This document shows, piece by piece, positions 16,417 through 57,803 of a DNA stretch of 64,000 bases. Made by a program: the position numbers and the translations under genes. This stretch comes from Isoetes taiwanensis (lineage: Eukaryota; Streptophyta; Lycopodiopsida; Isoetales; Isoetaceae): positions 666,182 through 730,181 of the forward strand of contig JAJEKV010000080.1 of assembly GCA_021234155.1 (NCBI GenBank), written 5' to 3'. The stretch's first letter is position 1, and every line of letters begins with the position of its first letter. Under the pieces are notes generated by a model. That model did no database searches. It was not told the origin of the DNA and saw only the letters and a program-made list of their open reading frames with translations.

Positions 16417-16763
16417 ACAAAGTTGCGTATTAAGCGGGGAGCAAATCATTGAAAGCGAGAGCAAAAGGAATATTCCTCAAAAGATTCCTTTTTTTTTACA
16501 AAAAGGGGTAAAAGCGAGGTTAAAAAAAAAAAAAAGATGCATGAAATTCTATTTTGACCCCCCCCCCAAATGACTAATTTTTTTTTTCAATGAAAAATTG
16601 ACTTTTTTTAAAGTGTCACTTTTCTTAGCAAATAGAATGTTCTTAAAGTATGTTTTAAGAGACAAACTCTAATTTTAGGAGGATAAAATATTTAACAAAA
16701 ATTGAAGTAAGTGCATGCTTGAAGCTGTAGTATTCTCAAAAATTGAAGATAGAATCTTCATAT

Positions 16764-19700
16764 TCACATACAAAATTCTGATCTTTTCTAAGACTTCGGT
16801 TATGTGCAAAAGTGTGAGGAGTGATGAGAGAGGGATCGGGGCGTCTTCATATTCATTTTATGCCATCGTCATCACCTTCACTTCTTTCTTTGTCATCAGG
16901 AAGTGCTTGAGTTATCTTCCTCATCACTATCAACAGACGGTGAAGCATTGTCACCACCTTCTTCATCATCTTCTTCGTAATTACAAGCTTTTTAAGCAAA
17001 TTGATAGTCTTACGGCGTGAGCGATTGTCGATTTCAATTTAAAATCATAGCACAAAATAGTCCGTCATTAAGGTTCATTTCGTCCCTACAACCCACCTTC
17101 TTGGACTTTCTCCCTTTTCCTTGGCTTCTCATTTCTAACTCATATCTACCTTCAAAAGCATTTTACGGCGTGTTGCAAGCCAATGAATCTTGAGTTTAGT
17201 GACTAAGCCTTCCTCCTTGGCTGTGTCAAGCACTTTTACTATCGAGCGATTCGACCTTTGTCATCCTCCTCGGTCGGAAGAGCAATTAGCATACCTTTGG
17301 TAATTTACGTGATATTACCTTGAGGCTCATTCTGCGTCTTGGTCAGGGTACATGACTCGGTCCTCCTCGTCTTCTACTGCGAGGTGCAAATGTAGCCTTT
17401 GCTTGGACTGCTTGGTCTTTGGGGTTGATGGAAGGTGTTAGGCCATTGAAATGGTTCTTGCAAGCTGTCTTAGAGCTATATTTTTGTACAACAATTTTAC
17501 GTTAGAAAGAAATTACTCCACCACATCAGATCTTCTTCTAAGAAGTACTTAAAACTGAGGAAATTCCATTTTCAATGGCTTTTAAGGATGACTCTGGGGT
17601 ACTTTTTCTTACCTTGGACTCCTTAGGATTTTTGAGAGCAAGTTGTTCAGCCACGTTCTATGAAGGAAGTGTGCGGAATATATTTAAGGAAGCGTAATCC
17701 CTACGGTGGACTCGGTCCTTAGTTGTGGTATACTTCTTCCCCTGTAAGAAGCTTTGGCCATCCTTCAAGTAGAACTTGATATGATCTTTGAAAGGTGAGA
17801 TCATTCAACTTGTTCGCGACTTGTTCTCTGTTTGAGCGTTGAGAGAAAACAAACTCTCTAAAATCAGCGGTCTCTTTAAGAAGATCGACCCTTTGGAGTA
17901 GGAGTGTAAGAATCTTCAATAATTGAACTAAAGAAGGAAGGAAGGAAAGCCTTCTTCCTTCTAAAGGCGCCTGAGAAAATCTTTGAACATTTGGTCAATC
18001 GATCATGAGTGTGGCCTACAAGTAAGAAACAGAGCTTCACTTTTCTAAAGATCCCTAGCTCCACTAACATGGCCACGATGCAAAGAGTGTTTGATTCTTG
18101 TTCTCCCTTGTAGTATTGTCAAGTTGCAGATAAAAAGCTTTGGTGGTAATTGCTCTTGCTTTCGCCGCGGGACCTTGTTAAAATTGTAATTGTGAGGTTC
18201 GGGTCACCATGCAAGTTTGGATCGTCAAAAATACTTTGCACTTTAGACTTCCTTTGAAGACCATAGCTCCTACAAGGTGGACCTTAACAAAACATTCCTC
18301 GGCACATCCTTAGGAATGTTCAAGAAATGTGGTAGAGTTGTTTTTTTTTGGTCCATTCCATCAATCACATGAGACATGTATTGCGGTGGGCGTTCAAGAG
18401 CTTTTTTTTTCTATGCTTGGCAAGCTTTCTTCTCTCTGCTTTGCTTGTTGTTCACGATGTCGGCAAGGTTACATTTGCACAATATCGTAGAAGAAATCAG
18501 GTCAAAACATTTTTACGAAACAAGTGAGAGATTGGAGAACATGAGCTTACTTCTTTTCGACCTCTGTCTTTGCGGTTTCTTGTTGACTCTTTAATTACGC
18601 ACACCTCGAGCAAGCGGACATTCTATGTTTTCTAGGAATTTTCACAAGACCGAATTCACTTTTCCGCGGTGCGGTGAAGTGTGAGTAAGAGATGTCTTTG
18701 AAGGTGAGTGCAAGTCTCTTTGTACTCATTAAAAACATCTTTTTTTTTGGTGATGTTATCGGTTAAATGATACATGTTCTTTGTTAGGTAGCTTCTCACA
18801 TGTTTCTCTAAAATATTTCTCCATCCATGACCACGGTGACAAGGGCATGCATGGTTACAACTCTTCTTGGTCCACAATGATCATCGATTCTTTGGATTTT
18901 TGTCAGTCTTTTGTGTATTCTAGACATTACGGTGGACCCTAAGCGGTGGACAACCATAAAGCATTTACGGCAAACTTCTTGGCCGGTTAATGTAGTGCAA
19001 GAAGGTGTTGCGATGCTGGTCTTACATGATAAGCTAAGTAGGCATTACGGTGCGCCAATGTCATGGGCGTAGTTGTCTCTAAGCGCTTTCGTAATTTAGC
19101 CATATTAAATCTGTTGATGCAACCCAATGAGCAGCATTTAGTTCTCAAAAGTCTCCTCATTTTGTGTTCATCCATAAGATTTCTTCTTCTTCTTGAGAGG
19201 AGCAAGCCCTCAAACCAAAATCCACCTTGAATTTCTTTGAAGATTGGCTTGAGAACATGTAATCTCTTTGTTCCTCGTTGGTGTCTTCATCTTACGATGA
19301 AACTTCTACTACGGGGGGTGACTTCCTCTGTCACGAGTGGTGTGCTTGTAGAGGAAAAGCAGACCGCGTGAAGTTGTTCAGGAATAGGCGGGGATGCGGT
19401 GTTAAAGGATGGTGATGGCCCATAAGAGGTTGTGGCATCATTTGTTCTTGTACCATCTTGAAAAGGAGTTCTTGCAAACATCTCCTTTAGAAGCGGACTG
19501 GAATTACGCAAATCCATGTGTCTAACCGTTGTTGTGTGAAGAGGAGTGCATCTTTGGGCGTCGTCCTCATTTGTAGTGAAGTCTGGTGAGAGAAATTGTA
19601 GTGAATCTCACGGTCTTCTTTACTTTACTACGTGTTCCTTGTATGTTTGGATGAAGGGTGAAGCAACAAATGGGGGGTAGCTTGTTCTTGAACACCGTTG

Positions 19701-20001
19701 TTGTGGAGCTTCCATAGGTGGTCGGGGGATGGAACAAAGGGTGATGGCAACATGCTCCGGCTGGTGGTGATTCTTTGGAAGGAGATGCGGTGTCTTTGTC
19801 TCTGAGGACTTGGTGGCGGTTGGAAGGGTGGTGGAAGTGCATTACGTCTTTGGACTCGGTGTGTCTTGAGGAAGCAACAACGATGAGTAGAGGTAGGAGT
19901 CGGAGAATGCCGGTCTTCACTAGAAATAGCGTTGTTCCCAAAGCGTGTCCTCGAGAACAGGGCGAGTTTGAGACAACAAAAGGTGGTGGAAGCTTGTTCA
20001 T
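16764..20001 (-). pseudogene. DUF7869-like RNase-H-type protein, candidate transposase (unit 1, frame-broken)
   Basis: Minus-strand gene of the nested element. Recognisable segments in order: a Ser/Pro/Thr-rich N-terminus (from the ATG at 20001), MDEHKMRRLLRTKCCSLGCI (19.1-19.2 kb, cysteine cluster), YHLTDNITKK (~18770), the IDGMDQ region (~18350-18370), LDNTTRENKN region (~18090-18128) and VELGIFRKVKLCFLLVGHTH (17996-18060). The C-terminus is acidic, near 16764-16980. Frames change repeatedly, at places where unit 2 often differs by CAG/CTG edits. The assignment rests on motif recall and needs a profile search. Confidence 0.55.
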
Positions 20002-20428
20002 GGCGGTTCGTCATCTTAACAAGCGCAAAAAATAGTAAAGAGATTTGAGAAACTTTACGTGTCGCGAGCTTTTCTTATTCGAATACTGCATACGTAGTAC
20101 AAGTAGAAGTTCGGTACTAATCAAGTGAAAGTCAAAATAAAAGCTATTACGGAATACACAAAGAGTAGGATAGTAAAAGCTAAGCGTATTCCGCTTCACA
20201 TAGAAAAAGAAAAGGCGAAAAGGATACCTTTAAAAGGAAATTTGGCGCCTTGATTGCGTATTCGGTCTCGGGCTCGAGTTGCCCGGCGCCGGTATACCGA
20301 TTATAAATAGGGAGGACCGTATTCCGATTCACATAGGCGAACATGGGCCGGTCGGTAAGAAAGTACAGCGTACAATCATTTGCATAATACGTTTCTTATT
20401 CCCGAATACACTATCGCCTTCCCTCGGA

Positions 20429-20664
20429 GAAAGTGTATTCCGAATACACTGGCCTTCGCTTTGAAGGCAGGAAAGTGTATTCGGAATACACTGGCAGCCT
20501 TCACGAAAGTGTATAGCGAAAGTGTATTCGAATACACTTTCAGCTTTCAAAATGAAGGCCAAAGTGTATTCGAATACACTTTAAGCCTTCAAGTGAAACC
20601 AAAGTGTATTCGAATACACTTTAAGCTAACCGGTGGCGAAAGTGTATTCAGGAATACACTTTCG
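20429..20664. repeat. Palindrome array 1, divergent promoter region (unit 1)
   Basis: Six copies of a dyad built on GTGTATTCGAATACAC with AAA/TTT arms, spaced about 40-50 bp. They are separated by GGCCTTC/GAAGGC-type spacers. The array lies between the starts of the two divergent genes of the nested element. Further half sites occur at 20070-20340. Confidence 0.8.
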
Positions 20665-20889
20665 TGTTTTTAGGTTTTAAGAGGTTACTTTTCCATGCGT
20701 TTTTTAGTTATTTTAGGCGTTTTTTCTGCCTTTAAAGCTTGTTTAGACCTTTTTCTTCGTCAAGATTGCAGTGCTTTTTTGGCATTTTTGTCCTCTTTTT
20801 GCCCTCTTTTTTCCCTTTTTGCAAGACATTTTGTGATACGGAATAGTTTTTGGCCCTTGTTTTTCTCTAACAAGGTCGTGTTTACAAAC

Positions 20890-23800
20890 AATTTGCCTGA
20901 GACAAGAAGGCGACAGAAAAACAACGAAGAGGCCCTTAAAATCCCACGAAAGCCGCACCCTGAGAGAGAAGGCTTGAGGAGTCAATTGCGCCTACTATCT
21001 CTGAAAACTTTCAAACTCAATGGTTCTTTACAAAGGGGTATACGGAAAGTACAGCACCCTTACTTTCCTACATATCAGTTGAGACCACGGAACCAAAAGA
21101 TGCGATGGCGAGGGAATTTATGCGCATGGGCACCATCCTTCGCCGTGAGTGAAGTATTTGGGGAGTCGGTCGGGTAGGGAGGCTGTCTTTTCGGACATCC
21201 CAAGGCTTTATTCATGTTGATGAATCCTACCTTAGAGTGGTGAAAGTAAATCCACATCCTCTTTACAAGTATGTTTCTCACTACGAACAAAAGTAAGCTC
21301 TGTTCCATCATTAACTTCGTTCGAAGCACAACGGCGAGGACTTCCCCTGACGAGAGTCGAGAACAAGGGGAAGAGGATAACCTAGAGAGCGGCGGTGCAT
21401 CATCACCATCACGGGAGTCCATCGGAGACCGAAGAAAGGCCACCGTCACCACCACCAAAGCGGCAAAGGCAAACCGTTGCGCTAAAAAACTAAAAAGCAA
21501 AGCGGCTTTGATTACCTTGAGAAGATGCTCACGAGGCACAAAAAAAAAGAAGAAGGGGAAAGGCAAAGCACACGGTGTTGCTTTCAAAAAAAAAAAAGTT
21601 GATAAAACATCGAGAAAATGGAGGAGATAAAACTGCACAAGTTTGTGCAAGGTGTCATTATTGCCCGATCACTTGTATGAAGCTTCCACCGAAAAATGAA
21701 GGCTGGTGAAAGGCCACCGGGTTCGCAAAATTTCGCCGATCACTTGAGGAACTGAAAAGGCGAGAATAAGGAGCAATCAAATGCTCATGTGGCCCCAATA
21801 GTTGTCCTTGTTGCGGGGGGGCGATGCAAAACCCCGAGGACTATGGCGGAGAAAGCGAGACCTACACTCACTCGTCTTGGGAGGCAATCGACTTCAAGGC
21901 AAGAAGGCAACTTTATAAAAGAAAAGAACCGAGGTACCTCTCAGTCCTCTGTATTTGTTTCTTGTGGTCTTACCGATGAAGAAGCGAAAATCGTTGCCAA
22001 CACCCACAATCGCGACAGCGAATATAAACTAAAGATGAGCCGTCGACAAGATCCGGTTCATGCGAAGTGCGTAATTTTCAAGGAAAAGTCACGGTGAGGA
22101 CTGAAAAGCCGGCGTTTTCCTTGGAGCTTAAGGGCGTGTGCCATTGAATCTTTTGAAATATGGCGAGGCCAATAAAAGCGATCTCTCATTGGTTTCAATT
22201 AGCTTTTAGAGATGGCAAGGTAAGCACAAAAGCGTATTCGAATAACAAATCAACTATCTCCGTGAAATCTTTTTGAGCAGATTTGGGAACTCGGGGCGAG
22301 ATATTTTCAATGTTGAGCGAGGGGAGTTAAAGAGCAAGGAGCAAGGGGACAGCCAAGAAAAAATCATCGGCGTGCCCAAAAAAAATGACCATTACCGTGC
22401 GGCGAGAAATGCGGGGCTTCTCAGAACCACGAGAGATTACGGGAGGCTTCTCCAAAAGTTGTTGATAAGGAGTTTAGCCTAGAAGAAATGTCAAAGGAAT
22501 TGCACAAGTAAGATCTACGCCACAAACTTTACTCTTTAGGCGTTAGAGTCCCAAAAACATCGGGGTAGATAGTGTATTCGGAATACACATACCTTTCTTC
22601 ACATGGGCCTTTGTGTATTAGGAATACACAATGCTTTTCTAGAGACAAGCAATGTGTATTAGGAACATTATATAAAAGAAAGCATGTGTGATACGGAACT
22701 CACATGTCCTCTTCTAAAAAGTATTGTGTATTCGAATACACATTGCTTCCTTCCGGAGATGCAATGTGTATTAGGAATACCACAATGCATTGTTCGAGTA
22801 GCATCACCGGTTAACCGGTTTGTATTCGAATACGTTTAGCTTGACTTTTATTTGTTTTTCTTCTACTTTGACTTGTTCCTCACTTTTTAACTCATTCTTT
22901 CCTTAGCGTCTTGCAGCCAAAAAAGCGTCATAACATGTCAAACATGTTTGATGGAGCGACTAAGCGTAGAGACATGGGAAAGGTGCAAGGAACTCTACCC
23001 AATAGCCGCCGGCGTGGCGCATTGTGCAATATGCACCAAATTTTGAGGGCTGGGTAAGTACTCTCAACATTCCTCGTCTTTGCACACCACGATCTCCTTA
23101 CGGTTGTTGTTTATGTTTTTCCTCGAGCAAAAGAAAAACAAAGACCTTCAGGGATTTATGCATTTGGTTAGAACAACACGGGAAGAGAGGTCGTTAAATT
23201 TGAAAGAAGAAGCTGTTGAGCGAGAACCATCCGACTACGAGAGATTTTGCATGTTTGATCAAAACAATTTATATTCAATCATTCACGGTGATTGCACGAA
23301 ACTTTGTCGAACGGTTAAGCCCGCGAGGACTTCACTTTGGTTATTCTGATCTTCCCTACGGGTTTAAGCTTAAAGGCGTGAATCTGACGACCAGCCCTTC
23401 AAATTTTCAGAATTTAATGCTTTTATTGATGGAATCAAGCGGATCCTGCTTGACTAAACATTGGCGTTTAGTTACTTTCCATTCGAGCATGCGGTCGGCT
23501 TGGTAGAATCAGCTTTCAAAAACCACTTTGGTTCTCGGTTCGAGGCGGGATATGAAAACCTTATGCGGTAAGTCTTATTCGAATCTGATTACTTTTCTCT
23601 TTGATTCGTGGTGTATTAGGAATAGTATTTTCTGTTTACGGTTTTGAAGTGTTTTCTCTTTTTTGCTAACATCACTTTAAATGTTTCACTAGGTACAAAG
23701 CGAACATCAACTACCATGGTGGAGGTCCAAGGTTGCTTAGCAAGGTAGAGTACCTTCATGTAGCTTATTGGAGTTTTGATGGGAAGAGGACCATGGAACA

Positions 23801-24363
23801 CTTCAACAACTTTGCCTTTGTCAAAACTTTTCAAGCGTCCTTGAGTTTCCAGCGGTCTTCACAATTGCGGGACCCAAGCGCACAAAGGCGGGATTGTGAA
23901 TCACTACGAAACCACAAAAGCTCATCAACCATCTCACGGACATGTTCTCGCGTCGTCCGGAGATTGGAGATGCTGATACTTTCTCACAGTTCTGGTACTA
24001 CTATCGCATGTGCACTTAAGAAGGGCATAGCTGTATGGTAGCCGTGGATATTGATAAGGATCTTTGTTAATTTTGTGAAGATGATGGTTTGCCTTACCTA
24101 CTTTACCGGATGAACATCAAGAGCTAGGGGCCAAGTCTTCATCGATTATGCTAAACTAAGCGTCCTCGGAGATCTGACCTCCATTCTCCGGCTCACTAGG
24201 CGATGAGGCAACCTTTGCGAGCTTAAAAAGTAGCTTTAGCTACCATTCAGGAAGGACAAGGAGGATACAAAACTTAAGTCTCCGGCAAAGGGCGGCCCGG
24301 CCTGAGAAGGACGAGGCGGCGGAAGCGAAAAAAAATGATGAGGACTATGATGTAGATCTTTGA
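20890..24363 (+). pseudogene. ParB-like plus DNA methyltransferase-like protein (unit 1, frame-broken)
   Basis: Plus-strand gene of the nested element. Segments: basic N-terminus with KRQRQ- and KKKKGKGKA-type stretches (to ~21600); ParB-like part 21640-22480 with GLTDEEAKIVANTHN (21964-22010); intron with palindromes 22508-22916; NLYSIIHGDCT (~23263-23295); DLPYGFKLKG (23348-23377); HWRLVTFHS (~23460); intron 23568-23692; YHGGGPRLLSKVEYLHVAYW (~23713-23770); acidic end DEDYDVDL stopping at 24363. DLPYGF is read directly only in this unit. Many small frame changes. Confidence 0.55.
22570..22836. repeat. Palindrome array 2, inside an intron of the plus-strand gene (unit 1)
   Basis: Seven dyads with the same GTGTATTC..GAATACAC core but different outer arms (CAAT..ATTG, CATG..). 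They lie inside a predicted intron (22508-22916, GTAAGA...TTGCAG). Several are scrambled relative to unit 2. Confidence 0.75.
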
Positions 24364-24719
24364 CTACTGCACATTAAAATTATCATTATTTATTACAATG
24401 AATCTTCTATATTGATGTACGAAAATTTATTAAAAACATATTACTTTTTTTTCCTCTCCATTTTGGTGCTTGTTTTTTTTCATGCTTTCAGTCTCTTCAA
24501 GTCTCTGCCTAAATTTAAGCTATTTGTATGATTTACGTTTTCATAAGTACAAAGTTATAAGCCTAATAATGGCCCAAAATTACCGAAAAAAAAAATCACG
24601 AACCTCTAGAAATTCTCAACAACTTTCAAAAAGGCTTATTTTAGAAACATGGTGTTTTTTAAAAGGGAATCTTTGAAACGGGAGTGATGCAACACTCCCG
24701 TTTAATTTGCTATCGTGTT

Positions 24720-48098: not shown

Positions 48099-48800
48099 TG
48101 AAACATTCTCACCATTGGTCAAGATTAATAGTTTGAGAATGCTACTAGCCATTGCAAACTCGTGTCACATGGAAATTCATCATATGGATGTAAGCACAGC
48201 ATTTCTTAATGCAAAACTTGAAGAAGAAATCTATTTGAAACCTGCACCAGGATTTGAGGAAGAAGAAGGAAAAGTTTGGAGATTAAACAGGGCAGTCTAT
48301 GGGCTGAAACAAGCACCAAGGGAGTGGTACAAATGTATGGACAATTATCTTCTAGAGCAAGGTTTTGAAAAGTTAAAGTGTGATGGGAATTTATACAGAT
48401 ATAATGCTGGAAAGCAGTGGTGTATTATAGCTTTATATGTTGATGACAATATCATGGTTGCAAATGACAAAGATATTTTGACTCAATGCAAACAACTGCT
48501 CAATAAACGTTCCCAAATGACAGATTTAGGTGAACTTAAAAGGTTTCTTGGCATTGAAGTATACAGGGACAGAAAACATAAACTGCTGACATTGAGCCAG
48601 CAAACTCATATCCTAAATATGTTGAAGAAATTTAATATGCGTGATTGCAACATAGCACAAACTCCCTTAGTACCAGGGCAGAAGATCTCAGCTAATATGT
48701 CTCCAAAAATAGAGAAAGAGAAAAAGCAAATGGAAAATGTGCCTTATAGATCACTGATTGGTTGCTTGTCTTATGTAGCAAATTGCACAAAACCAGATAT
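48022..48800 (+). pseudogene. Copia reverse transcriptase, interrupted (unit 2)
   Basis: Copies element RNA into DNA. The frame carries DETFSPLVKINSLRMLLAIA, MDVSTAFLNAKLEEEIYLKP, YGLKQAPREWYKCMD and the catalytic ALYVDDNIMVAN. It proceeds to YRSLIGCLSYVANCTKPDIT. Conserved copia sequence stops there at ~48800, exactly where the nested element begins, and resumes at ~57232 as IAFGVNLLSRY. Without the insertion the domain would read straight into RNase H. Confidence 0.85.
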
Positions 48801-48880
48801 AACAAAGTTGCGTATTAAACGGGAGCAAATCATTGAAACGAGAGCAAAAGGAATATTCCTCAAAGATTCCTTTTTTTTTA
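48801..48880 (+). repeat. Left terminal inverted repeat (unit 2)
   Basis: ATTAAACGGGAG here is the reverse complement of CTCCCGTTTAAT at the right end, and TCAAAGATTCC repeats the pairing further in. The pairing is imperfect in between. The unit 1 copy is 16417-16510. Confidence 0.6.
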
Positions 48881-49142
48881 CAAAAAAGGGGGTAAAACGA
48901 GGTTAAAAAAAAAAAGATGCATGAAATTCTATTTTGACCCCCCCCCAAATGACTAATTTTTTTTTGCAACGAAAGAATTGACTTTTTTAAAGTGTCACTT
49001 TTCTTAGCAAATAGAATGTTCTTAAAGTATGTTTTAAGAGACAAACTCTAATTTCAGAGGATAAAATATTTAACAAAAAATTGAAGTAAGTCCAGAATCG
49101 AAACAGTAGTATTCTCAAAAATTGAAGATAGAATCTTCATAT

Positions 49143-52100
49143 TCACATGCAAAATTTACGCCTTTTTCTAAGACTCCGCTTATGTGCAAAAGTGTGAGGA
49201 GTGATGAGAGAGGGATCCAGGACGCCTTCATATTCATTTATGCCATCGCCATCACCTTCACTTCTTTCATCATCATCCGAGGAAGTGCTTGAGTTATCTT
49301 CCTCATCACTATCAACAGACATCTGAAGCATTGTCACCACCTTCTTCATCATCTTCTTCGTAATTACAAGCTTTTTTAAGCAAATTGATAGTCTTCATGT
49401 AGACGATTGTCGATTTCAATTTAAAATCATAGCACAAAATAGTCACGCCATTAAGGTTCAGCTCGTCCCTACAACCCACCTTCTTGACTTTCTCCCTTTT
49501 CCTTGGCTTCTCATTTCTAACTCATATCTACCTTCAAAAGCATTTTCTCGAAAGCGTGTTGCAAGCCAATGAATCTTGAGTTTAGTGACTAAGCCTTCCT
49601 CCTTGACTGTGGTCAAGCACTTTTGCTATCCGTAATCCGCCGACCTTTGTCATCCTCCTCACTCGGAAGAGCAATTAGCATACCTTTGGTAATTTCTCGT
49701 GATATTACCTTGAGGCTCATTCCCCGCCTTTGGTCCGAGGTACATGACTCGTCCTCCTCGTTTTCATCTAGAGGTGCAAATGTAGCAATCGCTTGGACCC
49801 GCTTTGGTGTTTGGGGTTGATGGAAGGTGTTAGGCCATTGAAATGGTTCTTGCAACCGCCTTAGAGCTATATTTTGTACAACAATTTTCTCTGCTCGAGA
49901 AAGAAATTACTCCACCACATCCGATCTTCTTCTAAGAAGTACTTCAAGCCTCGAGGAAATTCCATTTTCAATGGCTTTTAAGGATGACTCGGGGTACTTT
50001 TCTTCCTCGCTTGGACTCCTTAGGATTTTTGAGAGCAAGTTGTTCAAAGACGCTCTATGAAGGAAGTGTCCGAATATATTTAAGGAAGCTGCAATCCCTC
50101 CTGGTGGACTCCAAATCCTTAGTTGTGGTATACTTCTTCCCTCAGAAGAAGCTTTGGCCATCCTTCAAGTAGAACTTGATATGATGTCGAAAGGTGAGAT
50201 CATTCAACTTGTTCACAAAATTTGTTCTCTCGCTTGAACGCTGAGAGAAAACAAACTCTCTAAAATCAGCAGCCTTTTAAGAAGATCGACCAATCGGAGT
50301 AGGAGTGTAAGAATCTTCAATAATTCAACTAAAGAAGGAAGACGTAAAAGCCTTCTTCCTTCTAAGGCTAACGTAAAATCAATAACATTTGTCAATCTGA
50401 TCATGAGTGTGGCCTACAAGTAAGAAACCGAGCTTCACTTTTCTAAAGATCCCTAGCTCCACTAACATGGCACAAGAGACGCAAAAGAGTGTTTGATTCT
50501 TGTTCTCCCTTGTAGTATTGTCAAGTTGCAAATAAAGCACCGGTGGTAATTGCTCTTGCTCGCACAGACCTTGTTAAGAATTGTAATTGTGAGGTTCGGT
50601 CACCATGCAAGTTTGGATACGCCAAAAATACTTTGCACTTTAGACTTCCTTTGAAGACTATAGCTCCTACAAGGTGGACCTTAACAAAACATTCCTCCGC
50701 ACATCCTTAGGAATGTTCAAGAAATGTGGTAGAGTTGTTTTTTTTTGGTCCATTCCATCAATCACAAATGTATTACATGTATTGCAAAGGGACGCTCAAG
50801 AGCTTTTTTCTATGCTTGGCAAGCTTTCTTCTCTCTCACGCTTGTTGTTCACGATGTGTCCGGCAAGGTTCTCATTGCACAATATCTCAGAGAAGAAATC
50901 AGGTCAAAACATTTTCTCTCAAACAAGTGAGAGATTGGAGAACATGAGCTTACTTCTTTTCGACCTCTGCCTTTGCAGCTTCTTTGTTGACTCTTTAATT
51001 CTCGCACACCTCGAAAGCAAAATGCATTATTCTATGTTTTCTAGGAATTTTCACAAGACCAATTCACTTTTCCACATACCGTGAAGTGTGAGTAAGAGAT
51101 GTGTCAAGCCGAAAGTGCAAGTCTCTTTGTACTCATTGAAAACATCTTTTTGGTGATGTTATCGCTTAAATGATACATGTTGTCGTTAGGTAGCTTCTCA
51201 CATGTTTCTCTAAAATATTTCTCCATCCATGACACAAAGAAGAAGGGCATGCATGGTTACAACTCTTCTTGGTCCACAATGATCATCGATTGCTGGATTT
51301 TTGTCCGCCTTTTGTGTATTCTAGACATTCTCGTGGACCCTAAATGGTGGACAACCATAAAGCATTTCGCAAAACTTCTTGACGGTTAATGTAGTGCAAG
51401 AAGGTGTTATGGTCTGGTCTTACATGATAAGCTAAGTAGGCATTCTGTCCGCGCAATGTCATGGAACTCAGAAGTTGTCTCTAACCGCCAGTAATTTAGC
51501 CATATTAAATCTGTTGATGCAACCCAATGAGCAGCATTTAGTTCTCAAAAGTCTCCTCATTTTGTGTTCATCCATAAGATTTCTTCTTCTTGCAGAGGAG
51601 CACGCCCTCAAACCAAAATCCACCTTGAATTTCTTTGAAGATTGGCTTGAGAACATGTAATCTCTTTGTTCCTCGTTGGTGTCTTCATCTTCTGATGAAA
51701 CTTCTACTCTGGGGGTGACTTCCTCCGTCCTGAGTGGTGTGCTTGTAGAGGAAAACAGACCACGTGAAGTTGTTCCCTAATAGGCGGGGTACAAAGAGTT
51801 AAAGGATGGTGATGGCCCATAAGAGGTTGTGGCATCACCGTTTCTTGTACCATCTTGAAAAGGAGTTCTTGCAAACATCTCCTTTAGAGCGGACTAGAAT
51901 TCTCAAGAATCCATGTGTCACAACCCGTTGTTGTGTGAAGAGGAGTGCATGCCGAGCCGTCGTCCCTCATTTGTAGTGAAGTCCCGTGAGAGAAATTGTA
52001 GTGAATCTCACGCCTTCTTTACTTTCTCGTGTTCCTTGTATGTTTGGATGAAGGGGCTAAGCAACAAATGGGGGTAGCTTGTTCTTGAACACCCGCTGTT

Positions 52101-52397
52101 GTGGAGCTTCCATAGGTGGTCCCGGGATGGAACAAAGGGTGATGGCAACATGTCTCAACCGGTGGTGATTCTTTGGAAGGAGATGCCGCAGGCCGCCTAC
52201 GTGACTTGGTGACGGTTGGAAGGGTGGTGGAAGTCCGTTACGGCCGGACTCGGTGTGTCTTCGAAGCAACAACGATGAAGCAGAGGTAGGAGCCTGAGAA
52301 TGCCTGGTCTTCACTAGAAATGACGCTTGTTCCCAAGCCGTCCTCCTCGAACCGCACGAAGTTTGAGACAACAAAAGGTGGTGGAAGCTTGTTCATG
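49143..52397 (-). CDS. DUF7869-like RNase-H-type protein, candidate transposase (unit 2, frame-broken)
   Basis: Candidate recombinase of the nested element. In reading order: Ser/Pro-rich N-terminus from ~52397; RTKCCSLGCINRFNMAKL (~51500-51560), a CC..C cluster as in DUF7869-family proteins; FVIDGMDQ with TLPHFL (50730-50766); LPPVLYLQLDNTTRENKNQT (50490-50545); VKLGFLLVGHTHDQID (50391-50440). It ends in an acidic tail rich in DSDEED and SSDDDE with a basic last segment, stopping at 49143. Spacing D(IDG)-~78 aa-D(LDN)-~40 aa-D/E(HTHDQID) is compatible with an RNase H fold. A single unbroken frame does not exist, and introns and sequence error cannot be separated by eye. It is transcribed divergently from the plus-strand gene. 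Confidence 0.55.
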
Positions 52398-52827
52398 AAG
52401 CGTTCGCCATCTTAACAACCGCAAAAATAGTAAAGAGATTTGAGAAACTTTCAGAATGCAGCTTTTCTTATTCCCTCAATACACGCCTATGAGTACAAGT
52501 AGAAGTTCCAAAGACTAATCAAGTGAAAGTCAAAATAAAAGCTATTCGAATACACAAGAGTAGGATAGTAAAGCTAAACGTATTCCGCTTCACATAGAAA
52601 AAAAAGAGAAAGACGAAAAGGATACCTTTAAAAGGTAATTTCGGGCGCCTTCGCCATGTATTCCAGCCTCGAGCTCGAGTTGCCAGCCAAATACTTCGAT
52701 TATAATATTCGAGACCGTATTCGATTCACATAGAGTGAACATGGACAGTCAAGAAGAAAGTACAACGCATAATCATTTGCATGTTCGTTTCTTATTCTCG
52801 AACACACTATCGCCTTCCCTCGGGCTT

Positions 52828-53061
52828 AAAAGTGTATTCGAATACACTTTGGCCTTCACTTGAAGGCTTAAAGTGTATTCCGAATACACTTTCGCCACCG
52901 GCTTAAAGTGTATAGCAAAAGTGTATTCCTGGACACACTTTCGCCTTCAAGAAAGGCCAAAGTGTATTCCGAATACACTTTTTCAAGTGAAAGGTTGTGT
53001 ATTCCTCCACACTTTCGCCTCGATGAAAGTTTTTCTAAAGTGTATTCCCAATACACTTTCG
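52828..53061. repeat. Palindrome array 1, divergent promoter region (unit 2)
   Basis: Dyads at 52828-52850, 52870-52892, 52905-52941 (with an extra half), 52959-52982, 52994-53016 and 53037-53061, all variants of GTGTATTC(C)GAATACAC. Related half sites (GTATTCCGCTTCAC, GTATTCGATTCAC) occur from 52470. The position between two divergent gene starts suggests a regulatory or recognition role. Confidence 0.85.
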
Positions 53062-53288
53062 TTTTTTAGGTTTTAAGAGGTTACTTTTCCATGCTTTTTT
53101 TAGTTATTTTAGGCTTTTTTTTCTGCCTTTAAAAGCTTGTTTAGACCTGTTTCTTCGTCAAGATTGCGCGTTTTTTGGCATTTTTGTCCTCTTTTTGCCC
53201 TCTTTTTTTCCCTTTTGCAAGACATTTTGTATTCGAATAGTTTTTGGCCACTGCTTTCTAACAAGGTCGTGTTTACAAACAATTTGTA

Positions 53289-56200
53289 ATGCACAAGAAG
53301 GCAGCAAGAAACAACAGAAGAGGCCCCTTAAAATCCCACAGAAACCGCACCCACAGAGAAGGCTTGAGGAGTCACCGCCTACTATCTACTTAAAAACTTT
53401 CAAACTCAATGGTTCTTTACAAGGGGTACTTCGAAAGTACAAAGACCCTTACTTTCCTACATGTGTCCGTTGGAGCCCTCGAACCAAAAGGTAATGATGA
53501 CATGGAATTTGTCCGCATGGGCACCATCCTTGCCGCGGAGTGAAGTAGCCGGGGAGTCCTGGCGTAGGGAGACTGCTCTTTTCGCACATCCCAAGGCTTT
53601 ATTCATGTTGATGAATCCTACCTTAGAGTGGTGAAAGTAAATCCACATCCTCTTTACAAGTATGTTTCTCACCACCAACAAGAAGTCGCCTGCTCCATCA
53701 TTAATTACGCTCAAGCAATAACGAATGCAGGACTTCCCCTACAAATGAAGTCAAACAAGGGGAAGAGGATAACCTAGAGAGCCCGAAAGCAAAGGCATCA
53801 TCACCATCCGGGAGTCCATCGAGACCAAGAAAGGCCACCGCCACCACCACCAAAGCGGCAAAGGCAAACCGCTGCCGCTAAAGAGCCTAAAAAGCAAACG
53901 GCTTTGATTGCAAATGTAAGATGCCCCCCGAGGCACAAAAGAAGAAGAAGGGGAAAGGCAAAGCACCTCGGTGTTGCTTTTAAAGAAAAAAAAAAAAGTT
54001 GATAAAACATCCGAGAAAATGGAGGAGATAAACCCGCACAAGTTTGTGCAAGGTGTCATTTATTTGCCGGGCCACTTGTATGAAGCTTCCAATCAAAAAA
54101 TGAAGTCGGGTGAAAGGCCACTTCAGGTTCGCAAAAAATTTACCATCACTTGAGGAACCCGAAAGACGTAATAAGGAGCAATCCAAATGCTCATGTGGCC
54201 CCAATAGTTGTCCTTGTTGACGATGGAGCAAAGGCAAAACCCCCGTGACTATGACAGAAAAACGCAGAGACCTACACTCACTACGCCTTGGGAGGCAATC
54301 ACAGCCTTCAAGGCAAGAAGGCAACTTTATAAAGAGAAGAAGAACCCGAGGTACCTCTCCGCCCTCCTCGCAACAAGCATCGCGGGTCTTACCGATGAAG
54401 AAGCGAAAATCGCTGCCAACACCCACAATGCCGACAACGAAATATAAACTAAAGATGAGCTTCGGCGACAAGATCCTGCTTCATGCACGTGGAGTAATGT
54501 AATTTTCAAGGAAACGTACGGTGAGGACCTCAAGAAGCCGCTTTTTCTTTGGAGCTTAAGGAGGCGTGTGCCATTGAATGTCCTCACGAGGCCAATAAAA
54601 GGCGCTCTCATTGGCCACGATAACCGGTTTCAATTAGCTTTTAGAGATGGCAAGGTAAGCACAAAACGATTCCGTAATAACAAATCAACTATCTCACGCG
54701 GAAATCTTTTTGAACAGATTTGGGAACCCGTGACGAGATATTTTCAATGTTCGAACGAGGGGAGTTAAAGAGCAAGGGCAAGGAGACGCCCAAGAAAAAA
54801 TCATCCGACGCGCCCCAAAAAGAAATGACCATTACCGGCCGGGTGAAAATGCGTGGCTTCTCCGACACGTAGATTCCGAGAGGCTTCTCCAAAAAGTTGT
54901 TGATAAGGAGTTTAGCCTAGAAGAAATGTCAAAGGAATTGCACAAGTAAGATCTCTCCCACAAACTTTACTCTTTAGACGCTAGAGTCCCAAAACATCGG
55001 GGTAGATAGTGTATTCCGTATCACACATACCTTTTTCACATGGGCACCGTGGTATTCCGAATACACAATGCTTTTCTAGAGACAAGCAATGTGTATTCCT
55101 AATACACATTGCCCATGTAAAGGAAGGCATGTGTATTCGAATACACATGTCCTCTTCTAAAAGTATTGTGTATTCCGTATACACATTGCTTCCTTCAGAG
55201 ATGCAATGTGTATTCCGAATACACAATGCATTTTGTTTCGAGGTAGCATCACCAAGCAACCAGGCTTTGTATTCCGTATCACGCTTAGCTTGACTTTTAC
55301 TTGTTTTTCTTCTACTTTGACTTGTTCCTCACTTTTTAACTCATTCTTTCCTTAATGTCTTGCAGCCAAAAGAACGTCATAACATGTCAAACATGTTTGA
55401 TGGAGCAGCTAAACGTAGAGACATGGGAAAGGTGCAAGGAACTCTACCCAATAGCCACTTCTGACGAGCGCATTGTGCAATATGCACCAAATTTTGAGGG
55501 CTGGGTAAGTACTCTCAACATTCCTCGTCTTTGCACACACGATCTCCTTACAGTTGTTGTTTTTGTTTTTCCTCAGAGCAAAAAGAAAAACAAAGACCTT
55601 CCCGAGGGATTTATGCATTTGGTTAGAACAACACGGGAAGAGAGGTCGTTAGTCGAAGAAGAACCTTCACCGGTGGAGCCGTAACCATCCCACTCACTTT
55701 AAAACTTTTGAATTGAGAGATTTTGCATGTTTGATCAAAACAATTTATATTCAATCATTCACGGTGATTGCACAATTCCTAACCTTGTCTGAACGGTTAA
55801 GAACTTTTTAGATGGTACCCCTGCATGACTTCACTTTGGTTATTGTTGATCTTCCCAATCATTCGGGTTTAAGCTTAAAGACAAAGCCAGACTTCAATTA
55901 TTACGACCAGCCCTTCAAATTTTCAGAATTTAATGCTTTTATTGATGGAATCAAGCAGATCACAACGGCTAAACATTGGCGCTTAGTTACTTTCCATTCG
56001 AAAGCATGCACCGCTTGGTAGAATCAGCTTTCAAAACCACTTTGGTTCTCCAACAGCAGATATGAAAACCTTGTTCTGTAAAGTCTTATTCCGTATCACG
56101 CTTATTTTCTCTTTGATTACGTAGTGTATTCCTAATAGTATTTCCCTGCTTCGGTTTTCAAGTGTTTTCTTGTTTTTGCTAACATCACTTTAAATGTTTC

Positions 56201-56877
56201 ACTAGGTACAAAACGAACATCAACTACCATGGTGGAGGTCCAAGGTTGCTTAGCAAGGTAGAGTACCTTCATGTAGCTTATTGGAGTTTTGATGGGAAGA
56301 GGACCATGGAACACTTCAACACCGCCGCCACTGTCAAAAACTTTTCAAACGCCCTTGAGTTTCCAGCAGCCTTACGTAAATTGCGGACCCAACCGCACAA
56401 GGCAGATTGTGAATCACTACCGTAAACCACAAAGCTCATCAACCATCTCCGGACATGTTCTCGCCCGTGAGATTGGGTGCTTGATGCTTTCTCGTTCTCG
56501 TACTACTATCGCATGTGCACTTAAGAAGGGCCGCAAATCGTAGCCGTGGATATTGATAAGGATGTCGTTAATTTTGTGAAGATGAGACCGGGTCTGCCTT
56601 TACCTACTTTACCGCATCTAACATCAAGAGCTAGGGGCCAAGTCTTCATCCGATTATGCTAAACTAACGCCCTCGAGATACAAAAACCTCCATTCTCCAA
56701 ATTTCACTAGACGATGAGGCAACCTTTGCAGAGCTTAAAGAAGTAGCTTTAGCTACCATTCCAGAGGACAAGGAGGATACAAAACTTAAGTCTCCAGCAA
56801 AGGAGCAGCCGGCACAGAAGGACGAGACGGCAGAGAGCAGCCAAAAAAATGATGAGGACTATGATATAGATCTTTGA
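53289..56877 (+). CDS. ParB-like plus DNA methyltransferase-like protein (unit 2, frame-broken)
   Basis: Candidate DNA-modifying protein. The start near 53289 is a guess. Order: basic, Pro-rich region to ~53990; HKFVQGVIYLPGHLYEASNQ and GERPLQVR (54030-54130); PWEAITAFKARRQLYKEKKN and AGLTDEEAKIAANTHNADNE (54280-54445), resembling ParB/Srx-like proteins; intron 54946-55365; second possible intron 55504-55577; FCMFDQNNLYSIIHGDCT (55722-55775); the Asp-Leu-Pro motif region (55847, disrupted here); FSEFNAFIDGIKQITTAKHW (55918-55978); intron 56078-56205; YHGGGPRLLSKVEYLHVAYW. It ends acidic, DEDYDIDL, at 56877. GDC followed ~25 residues later by DLPY, with a downstream TFHS strand, fits N6-adenine/N4-cytosine methyltransferases. 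Alternative: an RNA or small-molecule methylase fold. Confidence 0.55.
55006..55285. repeat. Palindrome array 2, inside an intron of the plus-strand gene (unit 2)
   Basis: Dyads near 55007, 55048, 55087-55111, 55128-55149 (CATGTGTATTCGAATACACA core), 55164-55189, 55203-55228 and 55265. They sit in a predicted intron 54946-55365 (GTAAGATCT...GTCTTGCAG). The core equals array 1 but the outer arms differ between dyads and each pairs with itself, so base pairing or dyad symmetry is maintained. Confidence 0.8.
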
Positions 56878-57169
56878 CTACTGCATATTAAAATTATCAT
56901 TATTTATTACAATGAATCTTCTATATTGATGTACGAAAATTTATTAAAAACATATTACTTTTTTTTCCTCTCCATTTTGGTGCTTGTTTTTTTTCATGCT
57001 TTCAGTCTCTTCAAGTCTCTGCCTAAATTTCGCTATTTGTATGATTTCTGTTTCATAAGTACAAAGTTATCGCCTAATAATGGCCCAAAATTACACGAAA
57101 AAAAATGCAAAAACCTCTAGAAATTCTCAACAACTTTCAAAAAAGGCTTATTTTAGAAACATGGTGTTT

Positions 57170-57231
57170 TTTAAAAGGGAATCTTTGAAACGGGAGTGAT
57201 GCAACACTCCCGTTTAATTTGCTATCGTGTT
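57170..57231 (-). repeat. Right terminal inverted repeat with a perfect hairpin (unit 2)
   Basis: AAACGGGAGTG (57188-57198), a six-base loop and CACTCCCGTTT (57205-57215) form a perfect 11-bp stem. The outer arm also pairs with the left end of the element. The same hairpin is intact in unit 1 at about 24676-24703. Confidence 0.7.
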
Positions 57232-57803
57232 ATATAGCCTTTGGAGTAAACTTGTTGAGCAGGTACAACAATAACCCTGGTTTAGAACATTGGACAGCTG
57301 CTAAAAGAATTTTGAGATATCTGAAAGGTACCTTAGATATTGGTATTAGGTATAACTCAGATGAACTTAAACTTAAGGCCTATTATGACTCTGACTGGGC
57401 AGGTGATTGTGCCCCTATAGCTTGGAAATGCAAAAAGCAAGGAAGTATAGCCCTATCTAGTGCAGAAGCAGAATATAATGCTGCAACTTTGCTAACTAAG
57501 GAGGTCGTATGGGAGAGAAGACTGCTTGCTGAGCTAGGGGTAGAACAAACAGAACCTACAATAATTTTTTGTGATAGCACAAGCTGCATAGCCATGTCCA
57601 GAAATCCTGTGTTGCATGAAAGATGCAAGCATATAGAAATGGAAGTCCATTTTATTCGAGATATGGTTGAAAGAAAACGGGTACATCTTGCATATGTTAG
57701 TACAGTCAATCAAATGGCAGATTTACTAACAAAGGCCTTGTCACTTGGAAGATTTAAGGTTCTAAGAGATGCAGTACAGTACATGGAAAAAATTAGTGGC
57801 TAA
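57232..57803 (+). CDS. Copia RNase H and Pol C-terminus (unit 2)
   Basis: RNase H degrades template RNA during reverse transcription. The frame opens just inside the nested element and reads copia sequence from IAFGVNLLSRY. Catalytic acids lie in AYYDSDWAGD, SSAEAEYNAA and IIFCDSTSCIAM. The C-terminal NQMADLLTKALSLGRFKVLR hallmark follows, with a natural stop at 57803. It is separated from its RT half by 8.4 kb, so the element is dead in this form. No polypurine tract plus 3' LTR follows. Confidence 0.88.

Follow-up and report, generated by a model that had tools for sequence, protein, structure and literature searches.

The window, a 64,000-nucleotide stretch of the lycophyte Isoetes taiwanensis (assembly GCA_021234155.1, contig JAJEKV010000080.1, positions 666,182 to 730,181 of the forward strand), contains at 48801-57231 a DNA transposon inserted in a copia pol gene. 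The element most probably represents a cut-and-paste family in which a DUF7869 protein serves as transposase, while a second gene, a weakly ParB-like N6/N4 DNA methylase, is kept by selection as an accessory that would mark element DNA. An earlier note, made from the letters of this DNA alone, had proposed such an element. Its features, with positions counted along the window, are as follows.

48797-48800, left target-site duplication ATAT, from flank comparison and empty copia sites
48801-57231, the DNA transposon, both bounds exact, inside the copia pol gene
48801-48825, plus strand, left terminal inverted repeat AACAAAGTTGCGTATTAAACGGGAG, read in the sequence and matched in other copies
49182-52410, minus strand, transposase gene with broken frames, placed by tblastn of pieces of copy L045 (N-terminal start near 52410 by eye, C-terminal end near 49182)
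50130-50700 (approximate), minus strand, DUF7869 (PF25273) domain, found by Pfam in copies L045 and L037 and placed by tblastn; LDN near 50530, GHTHD near 50410
52820-53066, intergenic (divergent-promoter) palindrome array, ideal form GTGTATTCYRGAATACAC, present here as half-sites only, with no exact copy
53242-54666, plus strand, methylase exon 1 with the ParB-like region (family matches from L045); start codon unsettled, GGNHS near 54283-54305
54717-54946 (approximate), plus strand, methylase exon 2, by tblastn
55010-55290, intronic array of the same palindrome, with a period of about 41 bp in L037 and L045
55367-55504, plus strand, methylase exon 3, by tblastn; splice sites seen in L037 and L045
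55577-56078 (end approximate), plus strand, methylase exon 4, which holds motif IV; other copies read DLPYG, and the letters near 55848-55866 are damaged in this one
56206-56877, plus strand, methylase exon 5 with motif I and stop, N6_N4_Mtase (PF01555); FSGSGTT in other copies
57207-57231, minus strand, right terminal inverted repeat, reading inward AACACGATAGCAAATTAAACGGGAG, read in the sequence and matched in other copies
57232-57235, right target-site duplication ATAT, from flank comparison
16417-24719, plus strand, second copy of the same insertion, which occupies the identical copia position within a duplicated block, with limits as in the earlier note

The stretch 48801-57231 is a genuine DNA transposon. 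It opens with AACAAAGTTGCG at 48801 and closes with ...CGTGTT at 57231, the last letters on the forward strand being CTCCCGTTTAATTTGCTATCGTGTT; the ends form an imperfect inverted repeat of 25 bp with 19 matching positions, of the type AACA...TGTT. The end pattern was applied to 22 entries (20 fetched loci and the two window copies) and found both ends in 12, representing 11 insertion events. All 12 are flanked by identical 4-bp sequences, and shifted control comparisons matched in 1 of 192, which places the duplication beyond chance. The remaining 10 entries were dropped, the right end being unmatched by the pattern in the fetched stretch and, in two of them, the left end as well. The flanks read TTGT, AATA, ATGA, CATT, AGAA, CCTA, ATAT, GGAT, AAGG, and GGTA at the 10 fetched loci and ATAT at both window copies. 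An empty copia site, with no insert and a single ATAT, occurs at all 40 of the places scored among 594 candidates, with 84-96% identity. Both bounds given in the earlier note are exact, and the independent insertions and empty sites that it set as checks were found, the former as 10 fetched loci with flanks of their own; further copies with both ends exist. Its inverted ends are present, but are longer than the 12 bp quoted, and its TATA-type target duplication is real, although the letters are ATAT rather than strictly TATA.

Copies were sought in 1,658,258,908 bases distributed over 1110 sequences; the available text on the assembly gives 1658.30 Mb in 204 scaffolds and 909 contigs, built from nanopore reads and polished with Illumina data (PMC8566536). 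The left 191 bp of the element match at each of the 40 places scored among 1440 candidates, and a methylase exon search gave matches at all 150 scored places, which are the top scorers among 3150 candidates. Counted by hand, 97 of these 150 exons are stop-free and 53 contain at least one stop. At two loci, L007 and L018 (C1045:18.21-18.23 Mb), the left ends directly abut parts of other element copies, as in nested insertion.

Both of the divergent genes claimed for the element are present. On the minus strand, the DUF7869 family is matched by pieces of L045 (E 2.3e-52) and L037 (E 6.1e-49). A homologue search returned 160 proteins at E ≤ 1e-5, of which 120 were listed, and the matches listed include Riccia, Ceratopteris, Adiantum, sea urchin, Clytia, oyster, coral, and the green alga Cymbomonas. 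In the alignment, which took in 75 of the 120 listed homologues, D466, H504, and D508 never vary, and conservation of D385 is 90% or more. The predicted model of homologue P0004, made with this alignment (mean predicted local distance difference test score 77, predicted template modelling score 0.60), arranges its strands and helices in the order typical of an RNase H fold, and all 50 of its listed structural matches are transposases or integrases, headed by Mos1, SETMAR, and retroviral integrases. The model points to an RNase-H-fold domain with conserved acidic residues, as in DDE/D transposons with terminal inverted repeats. The RNase-H-type DUF7869 protein is thus very probably the transposase of the element, in agreement with the RNase-H character and the role as mover that had been assigned to it.

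The plus-strand gene is, judged by its sequence, a weakly ParB-like region followed by an N6/N4 DNA methylase of prokaryotic type. Its methylase motif IV precedes motif I, and N6_N4_Mtase is matched in L037 with E 2.5e-17 and 64 bits against a curated cut-off of 26.7; a profile comparison of the methylase part with eight ParB-methylase fusions gave E 8.5e-18. In L045, a 479-residue open piece bears weak ParB-family matches that share one region: TIGR03764 (E 0.0012, falling well short of its cut-off), a PHROG ParB-like family (E 0.0049), and DUF6551 (E 0.052). Splice borders fit GT-AG where checked in L045, and the first donor in L037 is AT. Of the two motifs earlier ascribed to this gene, the methylase is firm; the ParB-like part is weak but repeated, and the expected PF02195 went unmatched in L045.

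The methylase copies compared for selection belong to subfamily A (L045 and L037) and subfamily B (L040 and L043). For the ParB-like exon, comparisons between A and B gave synonymous divergences (dS) of 1.42 and 1.14, nonsynonymous divergences (dN) of 0.10 and 0.09, and ratios of 0.07 and 0.08; for 108 aligned codons of the last methylase exon the values are 1.61, 0.12, and 0.07. Here dS is near saturation, and the alignments take in some assembly error and some non-coding tail, both of which push dN up, not down. A dN/dS of 0.07-0.08 between two subfamilies means that the methylase gene is, on these coding comparisons, maintained by purifying selection. Along its length, L045 is 93-99% identical to eight subfamily B copies through the initial 2 kb; identity then declines gradually and stands at 58-79% in the bins starting at 5.2 kb or later. 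This gradient suggests that the lineages have exchanged sequence or undergone gene conversion, and, since the copies were picked by their left ends, it carries no information on how frequent such exchange is.

The L045 element has 25 half-sites of GTGTATTCYRGAATACAC, compared with 1.5 once the bases are shuffled. The stretches examined contain between 0 and 11 exact full palindromes each, and both window copies, where the letters are error-prone, contain 0. These palindromes are candidate binding sites. In the proposed mechanism, the DUF7869 protein would act as a DDE/D-type transposase that recognizes the AACA...TGTT ends, with insertion through a 4-bp staggered cut. The ParB-like part would bind element DNA, perhaps at its palindrome arrays, one in the divergent promoter and one in an intron, and the methylase would mark that DNA with N6-methyladenine (6mA) or N4-methylcytosine (4mC). 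The mark, in turn, would aid expression, transposition, or escape from silencing, which would make the methylase an accessory of the element.

A search with the joined product of this gene matched two proteins out of 5490 candidates: a Chara braunii protein of 1020 residues, which aligns across the entire joined query with 27% identity, and a second, weak match. The methylase part alone matched 44 proteins, among them eight further Chara proteins, one from the fern Adiantum, eight with PF02195 and PF01555, and other methylases; named phage methylases are 22-26% identical among the full-length rows listed. Four methylase pieces from short contigs (P0125-P0127 and P0131) are 64-92% identical to the element and perhaps come from this or a related plant. 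A tree was built from 23 rows picked from the methylase matches (7 plant or charophyte and 16 of prokaryotic type), the remainder being omitted. In it, the Isoetes, Adiantum, and Chara methylases form one clade with support of 100/98, to be read with a long-branch warning.

The strongest competitor holds that the methylase is a passenger, captured once and carried along, with the selection stemming from a host function or a general role on DNA. DUF7869 relatives are listed from many plants and animals, whereas the named plant or algal matches of the methylase search are confined to Chara and Adiantum, so that the transposase seemingly needs no methylase. However, both genes and both ends occur together in copies of both subfamilies, dN/dS is low between copies of a multicopy element, and the same gene pair is reported, in the available text of PMC12477816, from an unrelated algal lineage. 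We regard a mere passenger as unlikely and favor a methylase that serves its transposon.

Several results weigh against this preferred reading. Foldseek gave no match at E ≤ 0.001 for the fold model, which was made on a homologue about 40% identical to the protein of the element rather than on that protein itself. Transposase pieces of L045 and L037 differ by a dS of 0.038 and a dN of 0.037, a ratio near 1 from few counted changes, so that no recent constraint is seen on this pair. PF02195 was unmatched at E ≤ 1 in L045 and in Chara P0001, and hhalign comparison of the ParB-like part with the eight fusions gave E 0.22 and a probability of 0.3%. Unlike the phage-enriched fusions, the plant gene has introns and appears to have lost the Box II arginine, as GGNHS in Isoetes and Chara seems, on placement by eye, to put a serine in its position. 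Nor is the plant clade sister to the fusions in the tree, where its nearest row is a single plain prokaryotic methylase with weak support (80/61). Finally, the reading frames are broken in both window copies, largely at contexts typical of long-read error.

Sequence disagreements were analyzed by 5-mer against three agreeing copies, L037, L045, and L048. The two window copies depart at 144 and 108 of 179 5-mers with CHG, at 141 and 116 of 290 with CG, and at 690 and 464 of 4388 with neither CG nor CNG. The accumulation at CHG and CG fits basecalling errors at dense 5-methylcytosine (5mC), perhaps with some true decay, and gives no sign of 6mA or 4mC.

A block of about 27 kb occurs twice in tandem in the window (4265-31449 and 36486-64000). 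The copy at 16417-24719 is not an independent insertion, as the earlier note had it, because it lies at the same copia site within this block; the two share one event. True duplication and assembly doubling are both possible for the block, in which disagreement is uneven: per 500-base bin, the copies differ by 9-23% inside the element and by 0.4-16% outside it, barring one 35% bin and an edge bin. Although this setting, the broken frames, and the 53 exons with stops could recall a non-mobile segmental repeat or assembly artefact with dead genes, that account is highly improbable and already contradicted by the distinct flanks and target duplications at 10 fetched loci, the clean empty sites, the 97 stop-free exons, and the concentration of disagreements at CHG and CG.

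Sola transposons produce 4-bp target duplications, as do Ginger transposons, which use a retroviral-type integrase; the duplications are 3 bp in CACTA, 8 in hAT, 9 in MULE, 3 in Harbinger, and 2 in Mariner. With 4 bp in every one of the 12 copies that have both ends, the element fits none of the latter five. As to Ginger, the rve domain was unmatched at E ≤ 1 in the L037 and L045 pieces and in homologues P0003, P0004, P0019, and P0021. The 4-bp duplication agrees with Sola-1, but is not unique to Sola; together with the cargo it suggests that the element is a candidate Sola-1 member.

Transposons with comparable cargo are described in algae. According to the available text of PMC12477816, Sola1-1_Ec32 of the brown alga Ectocarpus carries a ParB-like and N4/N6 methyltransferase gene opposite its transposase, similar ParB-methyltransferase proteins occur in green and red algal transposons, and giant EnSpm elements in red algae are cited. 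The likeness to Sola1-1_Ec32 is by description; that element is 21.5 kb, while the lycophyte one is about 8.4 kb. The kind of cargo is therefore already known, and the earlier suggestion of a new transposon type on that ground does not hold. Fusions of a ParB fold with an N6_N4 methylase, commoner in phages and dependent on the Box II arginine for nucleotide binding, share domain order and methylase similarity with the gene studied here (ParB-CTPase - N6_N4_Mtase, among P0154-P0166), but are not described as transposon cargo in the portion of PMC12704722 available. Fungal DNA transposons likewise carry a DNA-modification enzyme, in their case a TET/JBP dioxygenase, which, as far as the accessible text goes, acts on 5mC and writes no methyl mark (PMC12730594). 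The 4mC methyltransferases of Marchantia and bdelloids are likewise bacterial-type methylases gained by eukaryotes; the former acts genome-wide, the latter bears a chromodomain, and neither is described as transposon cargo in the part of PMC8885841 at hand. No land-plant family of such transposons was found in the literature searched, most subscription papers lying outside reach. What is new within that literature is the occurrence of a land-plant family, how abundant that family is, the signal of selection, the arrays of palindromes, and the interpretation of DUF7869 as a transposase.

Algal transposons with their own DNA methylase have been reported, and a vascular-plant family with this many copies, with regular palindrome arrays and with methylases that split into two diverged, strongly selected subfamilies, makes the purpose of this pairing testable. 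The predicted fold also offers structural grounds for reading DUF7869 proteins of plants and animals, annotated as of unknown function, as transposases. A bolder proposal, tentative and rather doubtful at present, is that the transposons of a land-plant family themselves place a mark other than 5mC, either 6mA or 4mC, on their palindrome arrays. They would then encode an epigenetic system of their own that operates beside or against host 5mC silencing and that streptophytes would have carried from a time before land plants arose.

Two DUF7869 homologues contain a further domain. P0068 (Adiantum), a listed homologue with rve besides DUF7869, is joined to an integrase core (PF00665), and P0087 (Riccia) to a cellulase domain (PF00759, per Pfam and name); both joins are probably gene-prediction fusions.
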